Shown piece after piece: positions 13,544 to 20,810 of a stretch of DNA of 37,967 nt. The notes beneath the pieces are model-generated. The model ran no database searches, was not told the origin of the DNA, and saw only the letters and a program-made list of their open reading frames with translations. The DNA is taken from positions 1-37,967 of IMG/VR virus record IMGVR_UViG_3300017782_000067; one strand, written 5' to 3'. Numbering within the stretch: the first letter of the stretch is position 1; each line of letters opens with the position of its first letter. The position numbers and the translations under genes are program-made. Origin of the DNA: a virus.

Positions 13544-13555
13544 ATTCATTATAAT

Positions 13556-13587
13556 TTGTTTTTAAAAATAAATAGTTGTATATTTAC
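13556..13587 (+). promoter_or_regulatory. Bacteroidota-type promoter, copy 1
   Basis: TTG (13556-13558), a 20-base spacer and TATATTTAC (13579-13587) match the Bacteroidota consensus TTG-N19-21-TAnnTTTG except for the last base. It lies just after a terminator and faces the early genes. A 36-base stretch including it (13553-13588) is repeated exactly at 15466-15501. Confidence 0.8.
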
Positions 13588-13598
13588 ATTATTACAAA

Positions 13599-13660
13599 GG
13601 GGCTGCAATAATTTATTTTTTAAAATGGGGTTTAGAAAAGATTAAGCAGCCCCAATTTTT
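13599..13660 (+). terminator. Leader hairpin, possible attenuator of the early operon
   Basis: GGGGCTGC (13599-13606) pairs with GCAGCCCC (13646-13653) around a 39-base AT-rich loop, followed by AATTTTTTT. It lies between the early promoter and its first gene, so transcripts must pass it. Either it attenuates the operon or it ends a roughly 65-base leader RNA. The stem is identical to the one at 3869-3899. Confidence 0.6.
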
Positions 13661-13683
13661 TTAACATTAAACTTATTTTTATT

Positions 13684-13908
13684 ATGGCAAATTTTATAAA
13701 ATTAACAACAACAAACACTGTATTAAAAAAAACAGAAATATACGGATTAAAAAAAGTTACTATTAGTGTAGGTGATGTTAATTATGACATACAATTTAAT
13801 GAAATTGAACAACATTTAGTGATTACAAAAAATGATCTGTTTATTAACGACAAGTTTTCAACTATTGAAGCGCATGAAATTTACACTAACATTGCAACTA
13901 TAAAATAA
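13684..13908 (+). CDS. Early hypothetical protein, 74 residues
   Basis: First gene after the early promoter and leader hairpin. The sequence alternates short strands (KKVTISVGDVNYDIQF) and one helix, suggesting a small single-domain fold without membrane segment or cysteines. The start region AAACTTATTTTTATTATGG closely resembles those of the genes at 15534 and 15753. It precedes the recombination genes by 18 bases. The family is not recognised. Confidence 0.65.
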   Translation: MANFIKLTTTNTVLKKTEIYGLKKVTISVGDVNYDIQFNEIEQHLVITKNDLFINDKFSTIEAHEIYTNIATIK

Positions 13909-13926
13909 TTATTCACACTAAAATTT

Positions 13927-14592
13927 ATGACAATGGAAAATAAAAATTTAAACTTTTGGTCAAAAGTATGTAAAACGCCAATAAATAAAACTAAGCAAGT
14001 TAAGCAAGGCGGCATGTCTTATACTACAATAAACGCACAATATCAGCTAAAACAAGCTACAAATCAATTTGGTGTGTACGGTGTAAAATGGAAATTACAT
14101 GATCTTAAGCACGAATTAATTAACATAGATAATGAAATATTATTAGTATTGAATGCAAAATTTAAAGCTAATGAATGTGAATTTCCAATAACAAATTCAA
14201 TTTATTTAAAACGCAAAACAAAGAACGGTTTAAAAATAGACACGGACGCATACAAAAAGCTTGAAACCGATACACTAACAAAAGCACTCAGCAAACTAGG
14301 GTTTAACGCTGATATATTTGAGGGGTTATATGACAACCAAAATTATTTAAATAGTTTATCTTTAGACGCTGATTTAAAAAATGTAGATCAAGAATATAAG
14401 CCAACATTGCCAGTTGCTAAAAATGATCAAATTGAATATCTTGAAAAAAACTTAAACGATAATAATAAAGATCAATTATTGAAAAGATTTTTTAGCAAAT
14501 GCAGCGTAACACAAAAGCAACTTGACAGACTTGAAAAATTAAATATCGATTGTTCACACATAACACCTGTAAACGATGGAACTAAAGATTGA
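13927..14592 (+). CDS. Single-strand annealing protein (Rad52/ERF-like candidate)
   Basis: A 221-residue protein upstream of a YqaJ-type exonuclease, the standard pairing of phage annealase and nuclease. Residues 31-60 (SYTTINAQYQLKQATNQFG, then YGVKWK) and 114-137 (TDTLTKALSKLGFNADIF) match the pattern of phage single-strand annealing proteins. In these a conserved T-x-A/L-TKALS-x-LGF segment precedes an acidic loop (here YDN). The C-terminal 60 residues are helical and less typed. Such proteins anneal complementary single strands during phage recombination and replication. The exact superfamily (ERF, Sak3/DUF1071 or Rad52) cannot be settled by eye. A second ATG at 13933 is possible. Confidence 0.6.
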   Translation: MTMENKNLNFWSKVCKTPINKTKQVKQGGMSYTTINAQYQLKQATNQFGVYGVKWKLHDLKHELINIDNEILLVLNAKFKANECEFPITNSIYLKRKTKNGLKIDTDAYKKLETDTLTKALSKLGFNADIFEGLYDNQNYLNSLSLDADLKNVDQEYKPTLPVAKNDQIEYLEKNLNDNNKDQLLKRFFSKCSVTQKQLDRLEKLNIDCSHITPVNDGTKD

Positions 14593-15229
14593 TCAAGGAA
14601 GTGGCGTATGGTTTATAAAGCGTGCGCCACGCTTTACAAACAGCAATATATTTACTTTGATAGGCAAAGACAAAACCAAGTTAACACAAGGGGCATTAAC
14701 TTATGTGTATGATAAGGCAGCAGTTGCATTATATAGCAAGCATTTATTTGAAGATGAAAACAGCTATACAAGTGAATCAATGCAAAGGGGGAACGATCTT
14801 GAGCCTGTGGCACGTATGGAGCACTCAATTAAGACAGGTGTAAATTTTCGTGAATGTGGTTTTTTTCTACATAGTGTCTTAGGTAAACACTTTGGGGGCA
14901 GTCCCGACGGATTAAGCGAATGCGGTACTATTACAGCAGAATACAAATGCCCTGACAATTACGGTACATTTTTGAAGCTTTGCATGTTAGATACTCCAGA
15001 CGATTTATATAAACATAGCAAGCAATATTTTTACCAATGTCATTCACATATGTTATTGACAGGCGCAAAGATGTGTCATTTTGTTGTGTTTGATCCTAGA
15101 GAAAAAAAGATACCAGACATAAAAATACTAGAAATACCGTACGATAAAGAAATTGCAGAACGTATTGAAACATTTGTAAGATTAGCGATTAAAGAGAAAT
15201 TAAGAATTATTAAAAAATTAACATCATGA
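14576..15229 (+). CDS. YqaJ-type phage exonuclease
   Basis: A 217-residue nuclease of the PD-(D/E)XK class. The motifs appear in order: Glu76 in RGNDLEP, Asp111 in GGSPDGL, Glu122-x-Lys124 in AEYKCP, and Gln154 in YFYQCHSHMLLTG. These are the metal- and DNA-binding positions of YqaJ/lambda-exonuclease proteins. It would resect double-strand ends to give single strands for the annealing protein encoded just upstream, with which it overlaps by 17 bases. Length and motif order are normal for the family. The next gene overlaps its stop by four bases. Confidence 0.85.
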   Translation: MELKIDQGSGVWFIKRAPRFTNSNIFTLIGKDKTKLTQGALTYVYDKAAVALYSKHLFEDENSYTSESMQRGNDLEPVARMEHSIKTGVNFRECGFFLHSVLGKHFGGSPDGLSECGTITAEYKCPDNYGTFLKLCMLDTPDDLYKHSKQYFYQCHSHMLLTGAKMCHFVVFDPREKKIPDIKILEIPYDKEIAERIETFVRLAIKEKLRIIKKLTS

Positions 15230-15450
15230 AAAAGCAAAAATTAAATAAGCAGCAATTTAAAAAATTTATATTAGATAAATGCAATCCATATAATTGGAAA
15301 ATTAACCCAGCAAAACCCCCAAAACATATTAGTACAAGTTCTTATTTAACTTACAGGGACAATGGTATTTTGCCGCTCAATAAACTTGAAACCCTATTAA
15401 ATAAAATGGGTTATCAAATAGACAATATTGAAATATCAGAAAAAAAGTAA
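15226..15450 (+). CDS. Small basic early protein, possibly DNA-binding
   Basis: This gene encodes 74 residues, strongly basic, starting in an ATGA overlap with the exonuclease stop. The C-terminal half (SSYLTYRDNGILPLNKLETLLNKMGYQIDNIEI) has the helix spacing of the last helices of an Xre-type DNA-binding domain. A full HTH is not clear. It ends the recombination operon: a promoter copy follows within 20 bases. Function unknown. Confidence 0.6.
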   Translation: MKKQKLNKQQFKKFILDKCNPYNWKINPAKPPKHISTSSYLTYRDNGILPLNKLETLLNKMGYQIDNIEISEKK

Positions 15451-15468
15451 AAGTTTTTTAATATAAAT

Positions 15469-15500
15469 TTGTTTTTAAAAATAAATAGTTGTATATTTAC
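15469..15500 (+). promoter_or_regulatory. Bacteroidota-type promoter, copy 2
   Basis: TTG (15469-15471), 20 bases and TATATTTAC (15492-15500) are identical to the promoter at 13556-13587 and sit in an exact 36-base repeat. It drives the small accessory genes from 15534 on. This copy has a short leader and lacks the hairpin that follows copy 1. Confidence 0.8.
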
Positions 15501-15533
15501 AATACATTAATTAACAAACTTAATTTTATTATT

Positions 15534-15737
15534 ATGGACAATCAAAAATCATTTGATCAATTTAAAAAAGATATTAATAACTTATATAAAGTTGGTAATT
15601 TAATTTTTTTAAGTAATAATATTTTAGATACTGCAAAAATAAAAAGTATAAAGTTTGATAAATTTTTTAATTGTGCAACTTTATATGTTATTAAAAAAAG
15701 TGGATTTGGTCAAAGTATTAATTTTTTTAACAAGTAA
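15534..15737 (+). CDS. Hypothetical early protein, 67 residues
   Basis: First gene after the second early promoter. The ATG at 15534 is chosen because an upstream in-frame TTG at 15489 lies inside the promoter. The protein has an N-terminal charged helix (SFDQFKKDINNLYKVG) followed by strands (NCATLYVIKKSGFG), with no membrane segment or metal site. Its start junction resembles those of 13684 and 15753. The family is not recognised. Confidence 0.6.
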   Translation: MDNQKSFDQFKKDINNLYKVGNLIFLSNNILDTAKIKSIKFDKFFNCATLYVIKKSGFGQSINFFNK

Positions 15738-15752
15738 ACTTAATTTTTTATT

Positions 15753-15977
15753 ATGGATATTGCAAAAATGATCACGGATTACAAACAATTATTACAAGAC
15801 ACACAAGTATTAATTTGCAAAAACACAGACACTAGAATACGCAAGCAAGACACTATGGATTGTTTTGAGATGCAAGAACTAGAATGCGAACGTAAATTAT
15901 TGCACACCAAAAAGCAAAGTTATATTAATTTTATTGCAAAGCTTGAATCTTTATTGCTAACCAATGTAAAATTATAA
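15753..15977 (+). CDS. Hypothetical helical protein, 74 residues
   Basis: A predicted all-helical, probably coiled-coil protein (long runs such as EMQELECERKLLHTKKQSY and FIAKLESLLL) with three cysteines that are not in pairs. It begins 16 bases after the previous gene in the shared junction AAACTTAATTTTTTATTATG, and the next gene starts three bases after its stop. The family is not recognised. Confidence 0.6.
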   Translation: MDIAKMITDYKQLLQDTQVLICKNTDTRIRKQDTMDCFEMQELECERKLLHTKKQSYINFIAKLESLLLTNVKL

Positions 15978-15979
15978 TC

Positions 15980-16240
15980 ATGGATAATTACGCAGGTTGT
16001 TACGGATCAAACCAATTTGATAGACATTTTTCTGATATGTTAGATGCACATTTAGACAGAATTGAAGACGATCAGCCGTTTGATTACGATAATTACGAAA
16101 GACATCAAACATGCGATTGTTGCAAGCAAAAATTTGATGTTACAGATTATGGTGTTGAAGAAATTTACATGGAAGCAGCCGACGAACATTGGATATATTG
16201 CATGTATTGCGACGAAGAAACAATTTTAGAATTTAGTTAA
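15980..16240 (+). CDS. Small acidic zinc-ribbon-like protein
   Basis: An 86-residue, strongly acidic protein with two Cys pairs, CDCC (about residues 48-51) and CMYC (about residues 74-77). These could form one zinc site. The spacing and the acidic surface suggest a small protein-binding zinc ribbon, but no named family is recognised. Its stop codon lies inside the first copy of the 33-base repeat. Confidence 0.65.
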   Translation: MDNYAGCYGSNQFDRHFSDMLDAHLDRIEDDQPFDYDNYERHQTCDCCKQKFDVTDYGVEEIYMEAADEHWIYCMYCDEETILEFS

Positions 16241-16268
16241 TAACAGGGGCGCACAGCCCCACAAAATA
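16236..16268 (+). repeat. 33-base direct repeat with GC hairpin, copy 1
   Basis: An exact 33-base repeat of 16651-16683. It starts in the stop codon of the upstream gene (GTTAA) and contains the hairpin GGGGC-GCACA-GCCCC (16246-16260). No T-tract follows, so it does not look like an ordinary terminator. It may instead stabilise mRNA 3' ends or act as a recombination boundary. Confidence 0.9.
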
Positions 16269-16290
16269 CAACTTACAAAAAATAATTATC

Positions 16291-16506
16291 ATGAATTTTA
16301 TATCTATAAAAAATAAATTACCAGAATATAACCCTACACAACACAGAGCTTTTGATATTTTAATTAAAGCTACAAATGATAGGTATTATACTGGTTATGC
16401 TGTTACTGAGTATGGTAAAACTACTTTTTACCAGTATAATGGCAGAAAAATATTAAATGTTATTTCTTGGCTATATTTACCAAAACAGCAAAACAAAGAA
16501 TCATGA
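16291..16506 (+). CDS. DUF551-like small protein
   Basis: A 71-residue protein that matches the shape of DUF551 proteins in phages: ISIKNKLPEYN near the start, a central strand pair (YYTGYAV, TTFYQYNG) and a final ISWLYLP. DUF551 members are small early phage proteins of unknown role. The match is by motif memory. The gene ends in the shared junction CAAAACAAAGAATCATGAA, overlaps the next start by four bases, and sits between the two 33-base repeats. Confidence 0.6.
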   Translation: MNFISIKNKLPEYNPTQHRAFDILIKATNDRYYTGYAVTEYGKTTFYQYNGRKILNVISWLYLPKQQNKES

Positions 16507-16655
16507 AAAAATTAATAAAAATAATAGTGTTATTTGCTTTGTCTTGGCTTATATGTTGCAACTTTTATCAAGCTTTAACATGTAAAACAATGACACAACA
16601 GGAGCTATTTTTAAGGATTCACAAGAGTTTTATTATAGATTTTAAAAAATGTTAA
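16503..16655 (+). CDS. Small secreted or membrane-anchored protein
   Basis: This gene encodes 50 residues from an ATGA overlap with the preceding stop. The N-terminus (KKLIKIIVLFALSWLICC) is a typical signal peptide or anchor: two lysines, a hydrophobic core, then two cysteines. The Cys could be a lipobox, though LICC is not a perfect one. The rest is short and helical. The stop lies in the second 33-base repeat. Superinfection exclusion proteins are often like this, but the assignment would be speculative. Confidence 0.6.
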   Translation: MKKLIKIIVLFALSWLICCNFYQALTCKTMTQQELFLRIHKSFIIDFKKC

Positions 16656-16683
16656 TAACAGGGGCGCACAGCCCCACAAAATA
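16651..16683 (+). repeat. 33-base direct repeat with GC hairpin, copy 2
   Basis: Identical over all 33 bases to 16236-16268. It again begins in the stop codon of the upstream gene and contains the GGGGC/GCCCC hairpin (16661-16675). Together the two copies bracket the two-gene cassette 16291-16655. Confidence 0.9.
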
Positions 16684-16689
16684 AAAAGT

Positions 16690-16836
16690 ATGAAAACTTA
16701 TAAAATAATATTTAGAAACAGCAAAACAGGACTACCACAGGGCACGACAATACAAGCCGCCAATAAATCAGATGCAATTGCCAAAGTAAAAGCATTTTAT
16801 AACGTATCTGAAATTATTGAATCATGGGAAGTATAA
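16690..16836 (+). CDS. Short hypothetical protein, 48 residues
   Basis: A short frame beginning seven bases after the second 33-base repeat. The pattern (KTYKIIFRNSKTG, then TTIQAANKSDAIAKVKAFYNV) is that of a small strand-helix domain seen in many uncharacterised phage proteins in which a strand is followed by an A-x-x-x-x-A-I-x-K helix. It overlaps the next gene by 13 bases with the junction GAATCATG. Function unknown. Confidence 0.55.
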   Translation: MKTYKIIFRNSKTGLPQGTTIQAANKSDAIAKVKAFYNVSEIIESWEV

Positions 16837-16934
16837 TAGTAACACTTAAAAAAAATAAGTACAGCCCAAAAGTTATGCAAGCTATAAAGGCAAAATACAA
16901 AGGTTTAAAAGTTGTTTTTAAGTTTAAAAAATAG
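16824..16934 (+). CDS. Very short basic protein, 36 residues
   Basis: A small frame inside the GAATCATG junction at the end of the previous gene, ending two bases before the next ATG. The product is very basic (about one third Lys). The tight packing between neighbours favours a real gene, but at this length the support is weak. Function unknown. Confidence 0.4.
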   Translation: MGSIIVTLKKNKYSPKVMQAIKAKYKGLKVVFKFKK

Positions 16935-16936
16935 TT

Positions 16937-17374
16937 ATGAGCATTCCACATTACAAGGATTCAGATCCCATACTTATAAATCAATGGATAACTAATGCAG
17001 AAATTTACAATTGGAGTAATCAATTATTTACCCTTGAGGCATTTGGTAATAAAAATCATAAATATCATTTGACATTTTGCAAACCAACTTTACAATATTG
17101 TTTAGATCAAAATGGTAGAGATGAATATTTTTCTCCTAAAAATGAAGAAGAAGAAAAACTATATTATTTGCAAGTATTAATTTACCGAATTATAGAAAAA
17201 TATTATTTACATATTAAATTTGATGAAAATCAAATGCAGAAACTTTATTTAATTTATTTAATTTGTTTAGAAACATCAGAATTATCTGAAGAAGTAATAA
17301 AACTTATTAAATCCAACGACTTAAAAAACATAGAGCTTGCATATTTATTAACTTATCCAAATGAAGAATCATGA
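16937..17374 (+). CDS. Hypothetical protein, 145 residues
   Basis: A soluble, mostly helical protein with several aromatic-rich helices (EEKLYYLQVLIYRIIEKYYLHI, shown in part). There are no cysteine pairs or catalytic motifs I can name. It ends NEES-stop in an ATGA overlap with the next gene. Its end resembles the QNKES ending of the genes at 16291 and 17371, because all three share the same junction sequence. The family is not recognised. Confidence 0.65.
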   Translation: MSIPHYKDSDPILINQWITNAEIYNWSNQLFTLEAFGNKNHKYHLTFCKPTLQYCLDQNGRDEYFSPKNEEEEKLYYLQVLIYRIIEKYYLHIKFDENQMQKLYLIYLICLETSELSEEVIKLIKSNDLKNIELAYLLTYPNEES

Positions 17375-17625
17375 ATGACTGGAAACTTACACAGGAAGAA
17401 CAAAATAAATTACCTAAAAAATATCTTGAAAAATATAAAAGAGCTTTATTTTTTATAAAAATGCCTCATGCAATTGGTCCATATGGAGGTTGGGCAACTG
17501 GTCATGATATACTAAAAGATCTTGGATGGACTGAAGTTAAAAAAACAAAAGGTCATAGAACTTGGATTTCTTTAGTAAAACCAGAAATTAAAACAATTTT
17601 AGAATATCAAAACAAAGAATCATGA
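17371..17625 (+). CDS. Hypothetical protein, 84 residues
   Basis: A small soluble protein with a conserved-looking glycine/aromatic segment (MPHAIGPYGGWATGHDILKD) that could form a ligand or nucleic-acid binding loop. The last residues QNKES are identical to those of the gene at 16291, because the 19-base junction CAAAACAAAGAATCATGAA is exactly repeated. It starts and ends in ATGA overlaps. The family is not recognised. Confidence 0.65.
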   Translation: MNDWKLTQEEQNKLPKKYLEKYKRALFFIKMPHAIGPYGGWATGHDILKDLGWTEVKKTKGHRTWISLVKPEIKTILEYQNKES

Positions 17626-18125
17626 ACGCAGCAAACATAATAATATCACTAACTTGGGTAATGTTCTTAGTATCGTATTATCCACATGTAGAAAAGCAAT
17701 TAGAGCCAGTTCCAGTAATTGAGCAGCAACAGCCAGATACTAACACTTTAAATCAAAGCAATGTACTTAGGTACGCAACAAAGATAGGTGTTAAGTTTCC
17801 AGAAGTGTATTTGCGTCAGTGTATTATGGAGTCGGGGCATTATTTTGAAAGTAACTTATCTAAGACTAATAATAATTTTCATGGTATGGCACATCCTTAC
17901 ATTAGAAAAACAACTAGCATAGGCGTAAAAGGAGGCATGGCAAAATATAAGTCATGGAGGCATTGTATAATAGATTATAAATATTGGCAAGAGTATTGGC
18001 AAGAAGAAATTGACGCAATAAACACCGTAGATGATTATATAAAATTTCTTAGAAAGTCGGGTTATCTGGGTGGAGCTCGCAAAACTTATGAAAAAGAATT
18101 ATTAATGGTTAAATTGAGCTTATGA
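17622..18125 (+). CDS. Membrane-anchored glucosaminidase-type peptidoglycan hydrolase
   Basis: This 167-residue protein starts with a hydrophobic segment (about residues 5-20), then a Pro/Gln-rich linker (25-45) and a glucosaminidase-like domain. Glu70 in RQCIMESGHY is the expected catalytic acid, and SKTNNNFHGM matches the NNLFGI-like motif of the FlgJ/GH73 group. GMAKYKSW and the aromatic WQEYW segment also fit. The N-terminal hydrophobic stretch may be a signal-anchor. It would cut peptidoglycan glycan chains during entry or lysis. The main amidase lies 5 kb downstream, so this is a second muralytic enzyme placed among small accessory genes. Its last codons carry the first copy of the TTAAATTGAGCTTATGA junction. 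Confidence 0.75.
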   Translation: MNAANIIISLTWVMFLVSYYPHVEKQLEPVPVIEQQQPDTNTLNQSNVLRYATKIGVKFPEVYLRQCIMESGHYFESNLSKTNNNFHGMAHPYIRKTTSIGVKGGMAKYKSWRHCIIDYKYWQEYWQEEIDAINTVDDYIKFLRKSGYLGGARKTYEKELLMVKLSL

Positions 18126-18475
18126 GAATAATAAGAAAAGCAAGAAAAGATTATGAATGTGATAAATGCAAGGGTATTATTAGAAAAGGTAATAGTTACA
18201 TTCATTATTCAGAAAGATTTCCTAAATATAATCATGATGAAACTAAACAAATTGGAATTGAATATTTTAATTCTAAAACTTGTAAAAATGAGATGTGTGA
18301 TGGTGTTTTAAAATATGCTTTTGATTATAAAAATGTATTAAAAAAATGCAACAAAGGAAAATGTAAGTATGAAGAAATAAAAGAATTTGATCATTATGCT
18401 GGAACTAATAGAGTTGATGTACCCACTGGAAAATATATTTGCATTTATTGCAACAAAATTAAAAAGAATTATTAA
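18122..18475 (+). CDS. Multi-cysteine zinc-binding protein
   Basis: A 117-residue basic protein with four Cys pairs: Cys13-x2-Cys16 in ECDKC, then TCKNEMC, KCNKGKC and a final CIYC. This should allow two zinc sites. The first part (RKARKDYECDKC, GIIRKGNSYIHY) resembles zinc ribbons of small phage proteins that begin with a C-x2-C and a K-G-x-x-Y strand. No HNH or nuclease motif is seen. It is bracketed by two copies of the TTAAATTGAG junction. Function unknown. Confidence 0.65.
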   Translation: MRIIRKARKDYECDKCKGIIRKGNSYIHYSERFPKYNHDETKQIGIEYFNSKTCKNEMCDGVLKYAFDYKNVLKKCNKGKCKYEEIKEFDHYAGTNRVDVPTGKYICIYCNKIKKNY

Positions 18476-18491
18476 CACTTAAATTGAGATT

Positions 18492-19001
18492 ATGAAAATT
18501 ACATTTAAAGATTTTAAAAATCAAATGGAATATTTAAAAGAAAAAGGTATTAAAATTTTGCAAATAAGAGAAAATCATTTCCCTAATGAATTTGAAATAA
18601 AAGGATTTGGAATTGACACAGGCCATTTTTATTACAAAGAAGGCCTTGCAATATTTAGAATAGAATCTAATGAACATTTTGGTAGTAAGGAGTCAGATTA
18701 TCGTATTCAGTGTAGAGATTTAATTGAAAAGGATGTTCAATATTACATAGATAAAAGAAAAGAAGAACAAAGAACTTTGATTCCTCAATATGAAGAAGAA
18801 ATTAAAAAAGCATCTGAAGAACTTGAAAAGCTTGAGTCTGAATTAAGAACAAAAATATCATTAGTCAGAAAATACGCTAAAGTTAATAGTGTAAGCAAAA
18901 TGATAGAAGAAAGCGAAAGAGCAGATAAATTAAATCGTAAAATAAAAGATTTAAGAAGAAAGATAAAAGATAAAGAAGAACATATAATTAGTTTACTTTA
19001 A
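18492..19001 (+). CDS. Coiled-coil hypothetical protein
   Basis: A 169-residue protein with a mixed N-terminal domain (about 1-85, including FGIDTGHFYYKEGLAIFRIE) and a long charged coiled coil (about 95-169) with regular Leu/Ile spacing. There are no cysteine pairs. It begins and ends within the 22-base junction shared at 18473 and 18999. Both junctions include the upstream stop codon, so it behaves like a self-contained cassette. Function unknown. Confidence 0.65.
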   Translation: MKITFKDFKNQMEYLKEKGIKILQIRENHFPNEFEIKGFGIDTGHFYYKEGLAIFRIESNEHFGSKESDYRIQCRDLIEKDVQYYIDKRKEEQRTLIPQYEEEIKKASEELEKLESELRTKISLVRKYAKVNSVSKMIEESERADKLNRKIKDLRRKIKDKEEHIISLL

Positions 19002-19017
19002 CACTTAAATTGAGCTT

Positions 19018-19356
19018 ATGAACTTAGAAGAAAAAATAAAAGAGATTGAATATCTTTGTCAGAATTTGGATGAAAGTAATTTTTATTTGTCAAGATCTTT
19101 GACTAACAAATCAATATATTTTATTGGTATGCATGACTTAGATGATTTTAGTATATTTGATATTAATTGTGATAATTCATACAATGCATTAATCAATAAT
19201 CTAAAGAAGAACCAAAAACAACCAGATCTTTATACTTTGGATGAGATTTTTAAAATAGAACATAAATGGTATGTTAATTATAATGATTCAAAAAATAATT
19301 TAGATAGAGTTGAGTACATTAAAAAACATGCTAAACCTTACAAAAAACTTGACTAA
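19018..19356 (+). CDS. Hypothetical protein, 112 residues
   Basis: A soluble protein with an N-terminal helix (EKIKEIEYLCQNLDESNFY), a short central strand region and a basic C-terminus. No motif is recognised. It starts at the third copy of the junction ending GAGCTTATG and is the last gene before the structured RNA region that precedes the replication initiator. Confidence 0.6.
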   Translation: MNLEEKIKEIEYLCQNLDESNFYLSRSLTNKSIYFIGMHDLDDFSIFDINCDNSYNALINNLKKNQKQPDLYTLDEIFKIEHKWYVNYNDSKNNLDRVEYIKKHAKPYKKLD

Positions 19357-19507
19357 CTAATTATTTTTTAGTATATTGTGACTACAATAGATGTTTTAAT
19401 TGGTATTTATATTTGTGATGCTATCAACCAAATAGAATTGAAGAAGCAAATATTTTATTAAAAATAAGATGTCATGAAATAACATAATTTAAATTTATAT
19501 CATAGGT

Positions 19508-19611
19508 AAGTCGAACGATCTGCGATATAAGTAAACCACATAAAAGCTGAATGTGTAATCAGCAGTTTTAAATTGAGTATCTCCGTTCGACTTTAGGGAT
19601 ACTCTTTTTTT
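19508..19611 (+). ncRNA. Structured leader or small RNA with nested pseudoknot and terminator
   Basis: Three interlocked pairings are visible. AAGTCGAACG (19508-19517) is the exact complement of CGTTCGACTT (19584-19593). CACAT (19537-19541) pairs with ATGTG (19551-19555), while GCTGA (19546-19550) pairs with TCAGC (19559-19563); this is a compact H-type pseudoknot with an AAAA loop. GAGTATC (19575-19581) pairs with GATACTC (19598-19604), followed by seven Ts, which makes a terminator. The first element pairs with the loop of that terminator. A -7-like TATATTTG lies at 19408-19415 without a good -33. It is either an attenuator for the initiator gene 18 bases downstream or a separate small RNA. 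Confidence 0.6.
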
Positions 19612-19629
19612 ATGCCATAAATTTACATC

Positions 19630-20574
19630 ATGAATAACAAGCCAAGCTATTACGGAATAATACCAGCACATGTAAGATATTGCAAAGAACTTAAACCAAT
19701 TGCACGTTTATTATATGCAGACATAACAGCCTTATGCAATGCAAATGGATATTGTACAGCTAAAAATAAATACTTTGCAGAAGCTTTTGAATTATCTGAT
19801 CGATCAATTACCAGGTACATATCTGAATTAGAAAGATTAAATTTTATTTGGATAGAAAGCATTACAACTCCACTAGGTACTTTGCGTAAAATATGGGTAG
19901 ACAAAACTGTCATGGGTAGACAGAACTGTCTAGGGGGGGGTGACAGTTCTGTCTACCAGAATAATATAAATACTAATAAAGTAAGTAAAGAGCCTGAAAA
20001 TTGCATTAACGATCACGATCGTATCACAAAAGAAATATCAAGCTACTTACAAACTGATGCAGGCAAACAACAAAAAGCATACTGGTTAAGTACTACAATG
20101 TTTAGCGGTAATTTTGACGAAGCATTGTCGAGCTTTACTGATTGGTATTACGGCAAAGATGATCTGGCTTTCATAAACAACCCTCTAAGGTTCTTAAATA
20201 AAAAAATGGTGTATTGGTTAAGGAATAAAAAAACAAGCGCATACACAAAGGATAAATCACCAAATAAGAGTAACAAGCCTGAAGATTTAGAAAGCTATTA
20301 CAAGGAATGTAAAAAAACAGCTAATCAAATAAAGCATTTGTTAAAACGTAATAAAAATAAATATCAAGCCTTTTTAAAAATTGCAACGCTTAAGCAAACA
20401 GTATTTGAATATTCGGTTTTATTTACGTATCCTTTTGAAAGCTCGGAGTATACCAGAACCAGCATTTTAAATATGTTTATGAAAGAGGTTACAGAATGGC
20501 AAAAGAACAATTTTACAAGTAAACAAATGATGGAGAAATTTAAAAAATTTGTTAAAATTAAAAACTTTAGGTAA
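19630..20574 (+). CDS. Replication initiator with helix-turn-helix domain (O-like)
   Basis: A 314-residue protein. Residues about 27-76 form a winged helix-turn-helix of the HTH_36 type (LLYADITALCNANGYCTAKN, then FELSDRSITRYISELERL), as in phage and plasmid replication proteins. The middle part, residues 88-112, is encoded by three iteron-like repeats. The rest is basic and helical and may recruit the helicase. The layout recalls phage lambda O, whose origin iterons also lie within its gene. The next gene but one encodes the primase-helicase. A structured RNA with a terminator ends 18 bases before the ATG. The last 41 bases are duplicated after the next gene. Confidence 0.75.
   Translation: MNNKPSYYGIIPAHVRYCKELKPIARLLYADITALCNANGYCTAKNKYFAEAFELSDRSITRYISELERLNFIWIESITTPLGTLRKIWVDKTVMGRQNCLGGGDSSVYQNNINTNKVSKEPENCINDHDRITKEISSYLQTDAGKQQKAYWLSTTMFSGNFDEALSSFTDWYYGKDDLAFINNPLRFLNKKMVYWLRNKKTSAYTKDKSPNKSNKPEDLESYYKECKKTANQIKHLLKRNKNKYQAFLKIATLKQTVFEYSVLFTYPFESSEYTRTSILNMFMKEVTEWQKNNFTSKQMMEKFKKFVKIKNFR
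19895..19957 (+). other. Iteron cluster, candidate replication origin inside the initiator gene
   Basis: Three copies of an 18-base unit are seen. R1 is GGGTAGACAAAACTGTCA (19895-19912) and R2 is GGGTAGACAGAACTGTCT (19914-19931). R3 on the opposite strand is GGTAGACAGAACTGTCA (19957-19941). R2 and R3 form a perfect 16-bp inverted repeat around a loop with eight Gs. R1 and R2 are 19 bases apart and read in different codon phases, so the repeat is conserved as DNA and not as protein. Each unit has an internal dyad, GACAG-AA-CTGTC. Confidence 0.75.
20527..20567 (+). repeat. 41-base duplication, copy 1 (end of initiator gene)
   Basis: Encodes the last residues of the initiator (MMEKFKKFVKIKNF). 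It matches 20770-20810 at 39 of 41 positions. The two copies bracket the 70-codon gene between them. Confidence 0.9.
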
Positions 20575-20786
20575 TGGCAAAGAAATTGTATCACAACATA
20601 ACACAAAAAATATACAATGAAACAAATGTAATTGATTTAATAGAGAATATGAATGATGGAGATTTAATCCTTTATTCAGAGTATGGCAATGGCTTAGTTT
20701 ATGTTCTTCCTGATAAAGAATTAAATAATATTAAAAAATATGTTAATGATTTCTATTATTCAATTTTAGATGATGAAGAAATTTAA
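20574..20786 (+). CDS. Small inserted gene, 70 residues
   Basis: An acidic 70-residue protein whose ATG overlaps the initiator stop (TAATG). The middle reads as strands (GDLILYSEYGNGLVYVLP) followed by a helix. Its final codons lie in the second copy of the 41-base duplication, but in another frame than the initiator-like reading (MMKKFNKFVKIKNL). This suggests that the gene was inserted at the 3' end of the initiator with duplication of that end. No family or function is recognised. Confidence 0.6.
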   Translation: MAKKLYHNITQKIYNETNVIDLIENMNDGDLILYSEYGNGLVYVLPDKELNNIKKYVNDFYYSILDDEEI

Positions 20787-20810
20787 CAAATTTGTTAAAA
20801 TTAAAAACTT
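20770..20810 (+). repeat. 41-base duplication, copy 2 (relic of initiator 3' end)
   Basis: Two substitutions separate it from 20527-20567. Read in the initiator frame it still encodes a near-copy of the initiator C-terminus, although it now spans the stop of the small gene and the gap before the primase gene. Confidence 0.9.

Follow-up and report, generated by a model that had tools for sequence, protein, structure and literature searches.

The window analysed here is the entire virus record IMGVR_UViG_3300017782_000067 of IMG/VR (37,967 nucleotides), and its region from 13.5 to 20.8 kb contains an array of small genes whose junctions carry repeated sequences. We propose that these junctions are probably duplicated expression signals which double as occasional recombination patches. 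The window, which encodes a head protease, a portal, a terminase and a tape-measure protein, belongs to a tailed phage, and its closest terminase and primase relatives are mostly Bacteroidota phages or prophages, the primase having also weak matches to Arthrobacter phages. The region is best read as the accessory early region of a tailed Bacteroidota phage; it extends from the last structural gene to the primase and contains an annealase, a YqaJ exonuclease, about 15 small genes, a glucosaminidase, a replication initiator and the primase. The small genes have no recognised relatives and are interspersed among the genes for recombination, lysis and replication.

Repeats at the gene boundaries of the early region

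Six exact pairs of at least 17 nt are found in the region: 36 nt (13553/15466), 33 nt (16236/16651), 19 nt (16489/17608), 17 nt (18472/18998), 17 nt (18109/19005) and 23 nt (20545/20788), the last being the core of a 41-nt, 95% duplication at 20527/20770. Only 0.01 such pairs were expected from order-3 Markov sequences and 0.22 from codon-preserving shuffles, the two chance models used, and pairs of at least 23 nt, three of which were observed, appeared in 0 of 400 simulated sequences. These data confirm the repeats, which far exceed the chance expectation. A lower repeat density in the structural region had been anticipated in an earlier sequence-only reading of this DNA, and it was found: against the six pairs of the array, the remaining 31 kb have only two pairs of at least 17 nt, one of 22 nt formed by the contig ends (1/37896) and an 18-mer (2050/31553). 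The same reading had listed six recurring kinds of junction, of which the longer repeats are all present and above chance. The AAACTTA-type starts (13669, 15516 and 15736) are weaker; they have 12-13 nt in common and, since the window contains 223 pairs of 12 nt, they are notable by their position alone and not by their length.

For five of the six pairs both copies lie in start-codon zones (about 5% of the window), and the sixth, the 36-bp pair, is a duplicated Bacteroidota-type promoter. The reading frame differs between the copies of two of the junctions (18091/18461 and 20527/20770), AAAAAGAATTATTAA, common to copies 1 and 2 of the 17-22-bp junction, being coding in copy 1 and holding the stop codon in copy 2. 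This recurrence in different frames indicates copying at the DNA level and not similarity at the protein level. Furthermore, the proteins of the array have no mutual similarity at E<0.05, which indicates that the genes between the junctions are not paralogues and argues against a simple tandem gene duplication.

Exchange between copies was simulated by joining the sequence in silico across each pair, the genes being counted as kept whole when the upstream protein was complete and the next start intact. This was the case for five of the six pairs, against 0.34 expected for random positions of the region with the same spacing, in agreement with the earlier claim that exchange between copies would gain or lose complete genes. 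In the sixth joining, across the 41-bp repeat, the initiator of 314 aa becomes a protein of 323 aa with its first 301 residues unchanged and only its C-terminus altered. The coordinates of the junctions and of the neighbouring genes are given in Table 1.

Table 1. Repeats, leader hairpin and genes located in the early region (coordinates in the window)
Feature	Coordinates	Strand	Support or form
36-bp exact repeat copy 1, promoter ahead of the recombination operon	13553..13588	+	TTTG-N20-TATATTT
Leader hairpin GGGGCUGC...GCAGCCCC then U-run, terminator/attenuator-like	13598..13661	+	-22.8 kcal/mol, z -4.4
Small gene, function not assigned, after AAACTTA-type start	13684..13908	+	
Putative single-strand annealing protein, RAD52-like by similarity	13927..14592	+	
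YqaJ / lambda-exonuclease family nuclease	14576..15229	+	Pfam PF09588 E 6e-14
36-bp exact repeat copy 2, promoter of the small-gene array, then AAACTTA-type leader	15466..15501	+	
Small gene, function not assigned, first in the array after promoter copy 2	15534..15737	+	
33-bp exact repeat copy 1, end of upstream gene with stop, then hairpin	16236..16268	+	GGGGC-GCACA-GCCCC
19-bp junction copy 1, ...QNKES, stop and overlapping ATGA start	16489..16507	+	
33-bp exact repeat copy 2	16651..16683	+	
Partial third copy of the 19-bp junction, ...NEES, stop with ATGA overlap	17356..17375	+	
19-bp junction copy 2	17608..17626	+	
Glucosaminidase-type lysis gene, between two junction types	17622..18125	+	Pfam PF01832 E 2.6e-9
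Junction AAAAAGAATTATTAA...TTAAATTGAGCTTATGA copy 1, coding inside the upstream gene	18091..18126	+	
Junction AAAAAGAATTATTAA...TTAAATTGAGCTTATGA copy 2, upstream stop in another frame	18461..18496	+	
17-22-bp junction copy 3	18998..19022	+	
41-bp repeat copy 1, C-terminal codons of the replication initiator	20527..20567	+	
70-aa gene between the 41-bp repeats, not at this place in relatives G1 and G2	20574..20786	+	
41-bp repeat copy 2, different frame, directly before the primase start	20770..20810	+	

Recombination genes and related phages

Annotated RAD52-like proteins and single-strand annealing proteins match the annealase at 33-36%, and Pfam, NCBIfam and PDB gave no match to it. An annealase and exonuclease pair adjoining the array had been recognised earlier; the exonuclease is supported by its family match (PF09588) and the annealase by the similarity just given, with the correction that the two genes (13927-15229) do not merely stand next to the array and are flanked by the two 36-bp promoter copies. 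The minimal pairing length is 23-27 bp for Red-beta and 31-34 bp for RecA (PMC3945230), and the annealase could therefore act on the pairs of 33-36 bp. Compared with 23-27 bp, the 36 and 33 bp pairs are long enough, the exact 23 bp pair is borderline and the pairs of 19, 17 and 17 bp are too short, so that the use of short homologies by the annealase, as first suggested, may hold for the two longest pairs, the 17-19 nt pairs falling short by this measure. We infer that the annealase may participate in exchange.

Relatives were sought by DNA among 50,697 phage records, and in IMG/VR with the exonuclease and the primase, with terminase alignments (applied also to genome contigs) and with a primase alignment. 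The last search gave two IMG/VR contigs, G1 (37,450 bases) and G2 (18,604 bases), with identities to the window of 35-36% for the primase and 42-45% for the terminase; the primase alignment gave one distant match in 395 Bacteroidota genomes. The plan of G2 is the same as that of the window, with promoter, AAACTT-type leader, small genes, structured leader, initiator and primase. None of its small genes matches those of the window, and it contains a single start-associated repeat of 20 nt, at two successive small genes. The initiator and the primase overlap directly in both contigs, which indicates that the gene located between the 41-bp repeats of the window is absent there. G1 was also considered as a natural deletion of the small-gene block, as its two ends coincide with the edges of that block, and this was rejected: the joined ends would leave half of a terminator hairpin, circularity is not established, and the contig is without the block because it ends there. 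Searches of IMG/VR for the exact junctions, made with the hairpin and the CTTAAATTGAG junction as DNA patterns, had no matches, and the search with the AAACTTA leader gave one unrelated contig, in which the leader stands after a promoter and begins a gene.

Repeats above expectation are found also in other Bacteroidota phages (BS162P3, 11b and FCL-2), several of them being copies of a promoter or a leader. The FCL-2 group of Flavobacterium phages comprises 79 related records, of which five were compared. As in the window, promoter and leader copies stand before small early genes and an annealase is annotated (RecT-like); unlike in the window, a comparison of the copies across isolates is possible and reveals conversion, a chimera and one gene that was lost or gained. 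Among the five records, gene gains and losses are nearly all non-structural, with many edges at gene boundaries. The promoter copies are located near 3.4, 28.8 and 41-43 kb; one of them has undergone conversion in some isolates and is a chimera in others, which offers a natural test of exchange between dispersed repeats. In F37, one of the three copies is identical to another over 73 nt. At the same place S1, FCV-1 and VK58 have a chimeric promoter that agrees with one copy in its first part and with the other in its second, the switch point being inside the common 17-nt core.

S1, FCV-1, F37 and VK58 contain a 70-aa gene and about 300 additional bases that FCL-2 lacks, these having been either lost by FCL-2 or gained by the others. 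At the FCL-2 junction the leader of the missing gene is fused to the leader of the next gene, and both fused leaders read AACTA..TTTAT..TTATGAAAACA. A direct repeat of 26 nt, suggested by overlapping alignments at one FCL-2 deletion, was discarded, as inspection gave 8 nt only. The FCL-2 group, which shares the kind of host with the window phage and is not its close kin, shows the type of event and not its occurrence in the window phage. In the variable early region of FCOV-F37 (43713-45345), exact repeats of 327 nt (43713/44920) and 90 nt (45168/45256) were also observed.

Explanations of the junctions and known repeat systems

In the explanation that we favour, the promoter, the start leaders often overlapping the upstream stop (ATGA) and the stop-plus-hairpin would all be duplicated expression signals, copied along with past gains and losses of genes at gene boundaries and retained mainly for the expression of the next gene. 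They could double as homology patches, through which exchange, either within the genome or with a co-infecting relative, would drop or add complete genes, and the repeats themselves presumably originate from exchange. Several points weigh against this explanation. The searches by DNA, exonuclease, primase and terminase gave no close relative of the window phage, with nothing above about 45% protein identity, and the presence or absence of genes at its own junctions is therefore unseen; the initiators of G1 and G2 have no detectable homology to that of the window, which makes the empty-site argument positional only; and the repeats of 17-19 nt are below the minimal pairing length of Red-beta (PMC3945230). 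Moreover, other gene losses of the FCL-2 group at gene boundaries have edges with repeats of 7-9 nt only. Long junction repeats are thus unnecessary for boundary-precise turnover, and leader repeats would be one route and not the sole route. A wider proposal, in which the long A/T-rich start leaders of Bacteroidota phages, whose hosts are without Shine-Dalgarno sites, would be at once translation signals and recombination joints that leave genes whole, and a phage with several leader families would carry a modular array with cassettes swapped by its own annealase, we regard as doubtful.

The repeats could instead be purely functional, the same promoter, leader and hairpin being reused for joint regulation with recombination uninvolved. 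Such an origin is possible because Bacteroidota are without Shine-Dalgarno (SD) signals and rely on upstream bases such as A-3 (PMC6847099), and joint regulation is the role proposed for the SASs of mycobacteriophages (PMC3203893). The 36-nt repeat fits a Bacteroidota promoter, and start leaders and promoters repeat also in BS162P3, 11b and FCL-2. However, an exact identity over 33-36 nt seems beyond the needs of such signals, the copies extend into upstream coding sequence in differing frames, those of the FCL-2 relatives are chimeric and converted, and the leaders are not common host leaders, either exact pattern being found in 0 of 395 Bacteroidota genomes. We consider a purely functional origin to be rather unlikely. 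A dedicated shuffling system, in which the annealase and the exonuclease would reshuffle the cassettes at the junctions at a high, selected rate, appears improbable. Both enzymes are encoded here, between the two copies of the 36-bp repeat, but annealase/exonuclease pairs are widespread in phages generally. Although the repeats of 33 and 36 bp exceed the Red-beta minimum, three of the six pairs have only 17-19 nt, and exchange at the longest pair would remove the very genes for recombination. The series of junction copies, and similar-looking repeats found between adjacent small genes of phage 11b (11627-12068), would be in agreement with a tandem duplication of genes and leaders followed by divergence of the genes, but the mutual dissimilarity of the array proteins and the differing frames of the copies leave this very improbable. 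Chance matches in AT-rich sequence have next to no probability left: at the GC content of the window (31%) pairs of 12-14 nt are abundant, but the simulated sequences contained none of the length of the three longest observed, and chance is refuted for the five longer junction families, the AAACTTA starts excepted.

The arrangement had been put forward as not being a named system. Boundary sequences, promoter early stem-loops (PeSLs) and SAS/ESAS are named precedents, from which the window has several differences. The original work on PeSLs is reportedly that of Arbiol et al. 2010 and Comeau et al. 2014. PeSLs are repeated cassettes of early promoter and stem-loop between small early genes of T4-like phages, held to mediate modular shuffling among related phages (PMC4503421). 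The window may resemble them in its duplicated promoter (36 bp) and duplicated hairpin (33 bp), which are separate repeats and not one composite, and is unlike them in that start-leader junctions are the commonest kind, that phage type and host phylum are others, and that shuffling is a matter of inference. The window is not a T4-like genome, its terminase and primase matching best those of smaller Bacteroidota phages, with no T4-like match seen.

In Cluster K mycobacteriophages, SAS/ESAS are short repeats just before the starts of some non-structural genes, not found in the structural half and sometimes including the upstream stop codon, SAS being a single family of 13 bp with 11-19 copies and an SD core (PMC3203893). 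The repeats of the window are likewise directly upstream of start codons and in the non-structural region only, whereas they form several unrelated families of 2-3 copies each, without SD. The conserved 13-bp SAS sequence GGGATAGGAGCCC is in none of the repeat families of the window, which are AT-rich except for the hairpin GGGGCGCACAGCCCC. The boundary sequences of lambdoid phages are short and conserved, lie where genes meet and have been put forward as targets for homologous exchange (PMC3233612), and the pairs of the region are likewise short, conserved and placed at gene boundaries. The lambdoid sequences are shared between different phage genomes, whereas the copies of the window are seen within one genome only. 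In an old dispute on exchange at gene ends, targeted boundary sequences are opposed to random joining followed by selection (PMC3233612). The window differs from these precedents in how many junction families one small genome contains, in their placement on start leaders in non-Shine-Dalgarno hosts and in the frame-independent duplication. Its junction families around an annealase, together with the isolates of the FCL-2 group, make the boundary-sequence model directly testable, in hosts whose genes are marked by start leaders and not by SD sites.

Leaders, hairpins and composition

Both strong promoters of the window have the form TTTG-N20-TATATTT, which we take to be the Bacteroidota promoter form. 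The hairpin located between promoter copy 1 and the first gene (13598-13661) is predicted to be an attenuator-like leader of the recombination operon. The GC hairpin of the 33-bp repeat is without a U-run on the coding strand. The leader of the initiator (19500-19605) contains a terminator-like hairpin, GAGTATC...GATACTC, followed by seven T, and the loop CGTTCGAC of this hairpin has a complement, GTCGAACG, about 70 bases upstream, which makes a pseudoknot or an attenuator possible; this pairing is absent from the predicted minimum-energy fold, and the leader has no match in Rfam. In G2, the hairpin at the same place before the initiator is very stable (z -7.7) and has a U-run.

The array genes at 15534, 16937, 17371, 18122 and 18492 have a third-position GC of 0.09-0.14, against a mean of 0.24 for the structural genes, which would fit a foreign origin. 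An imperfect direct repeat beginning GAGCCAATGCGAGCCAATGAAA is present at both contig ends (1-72 and 37896-37967), and is either a genome end or an assembly feature.

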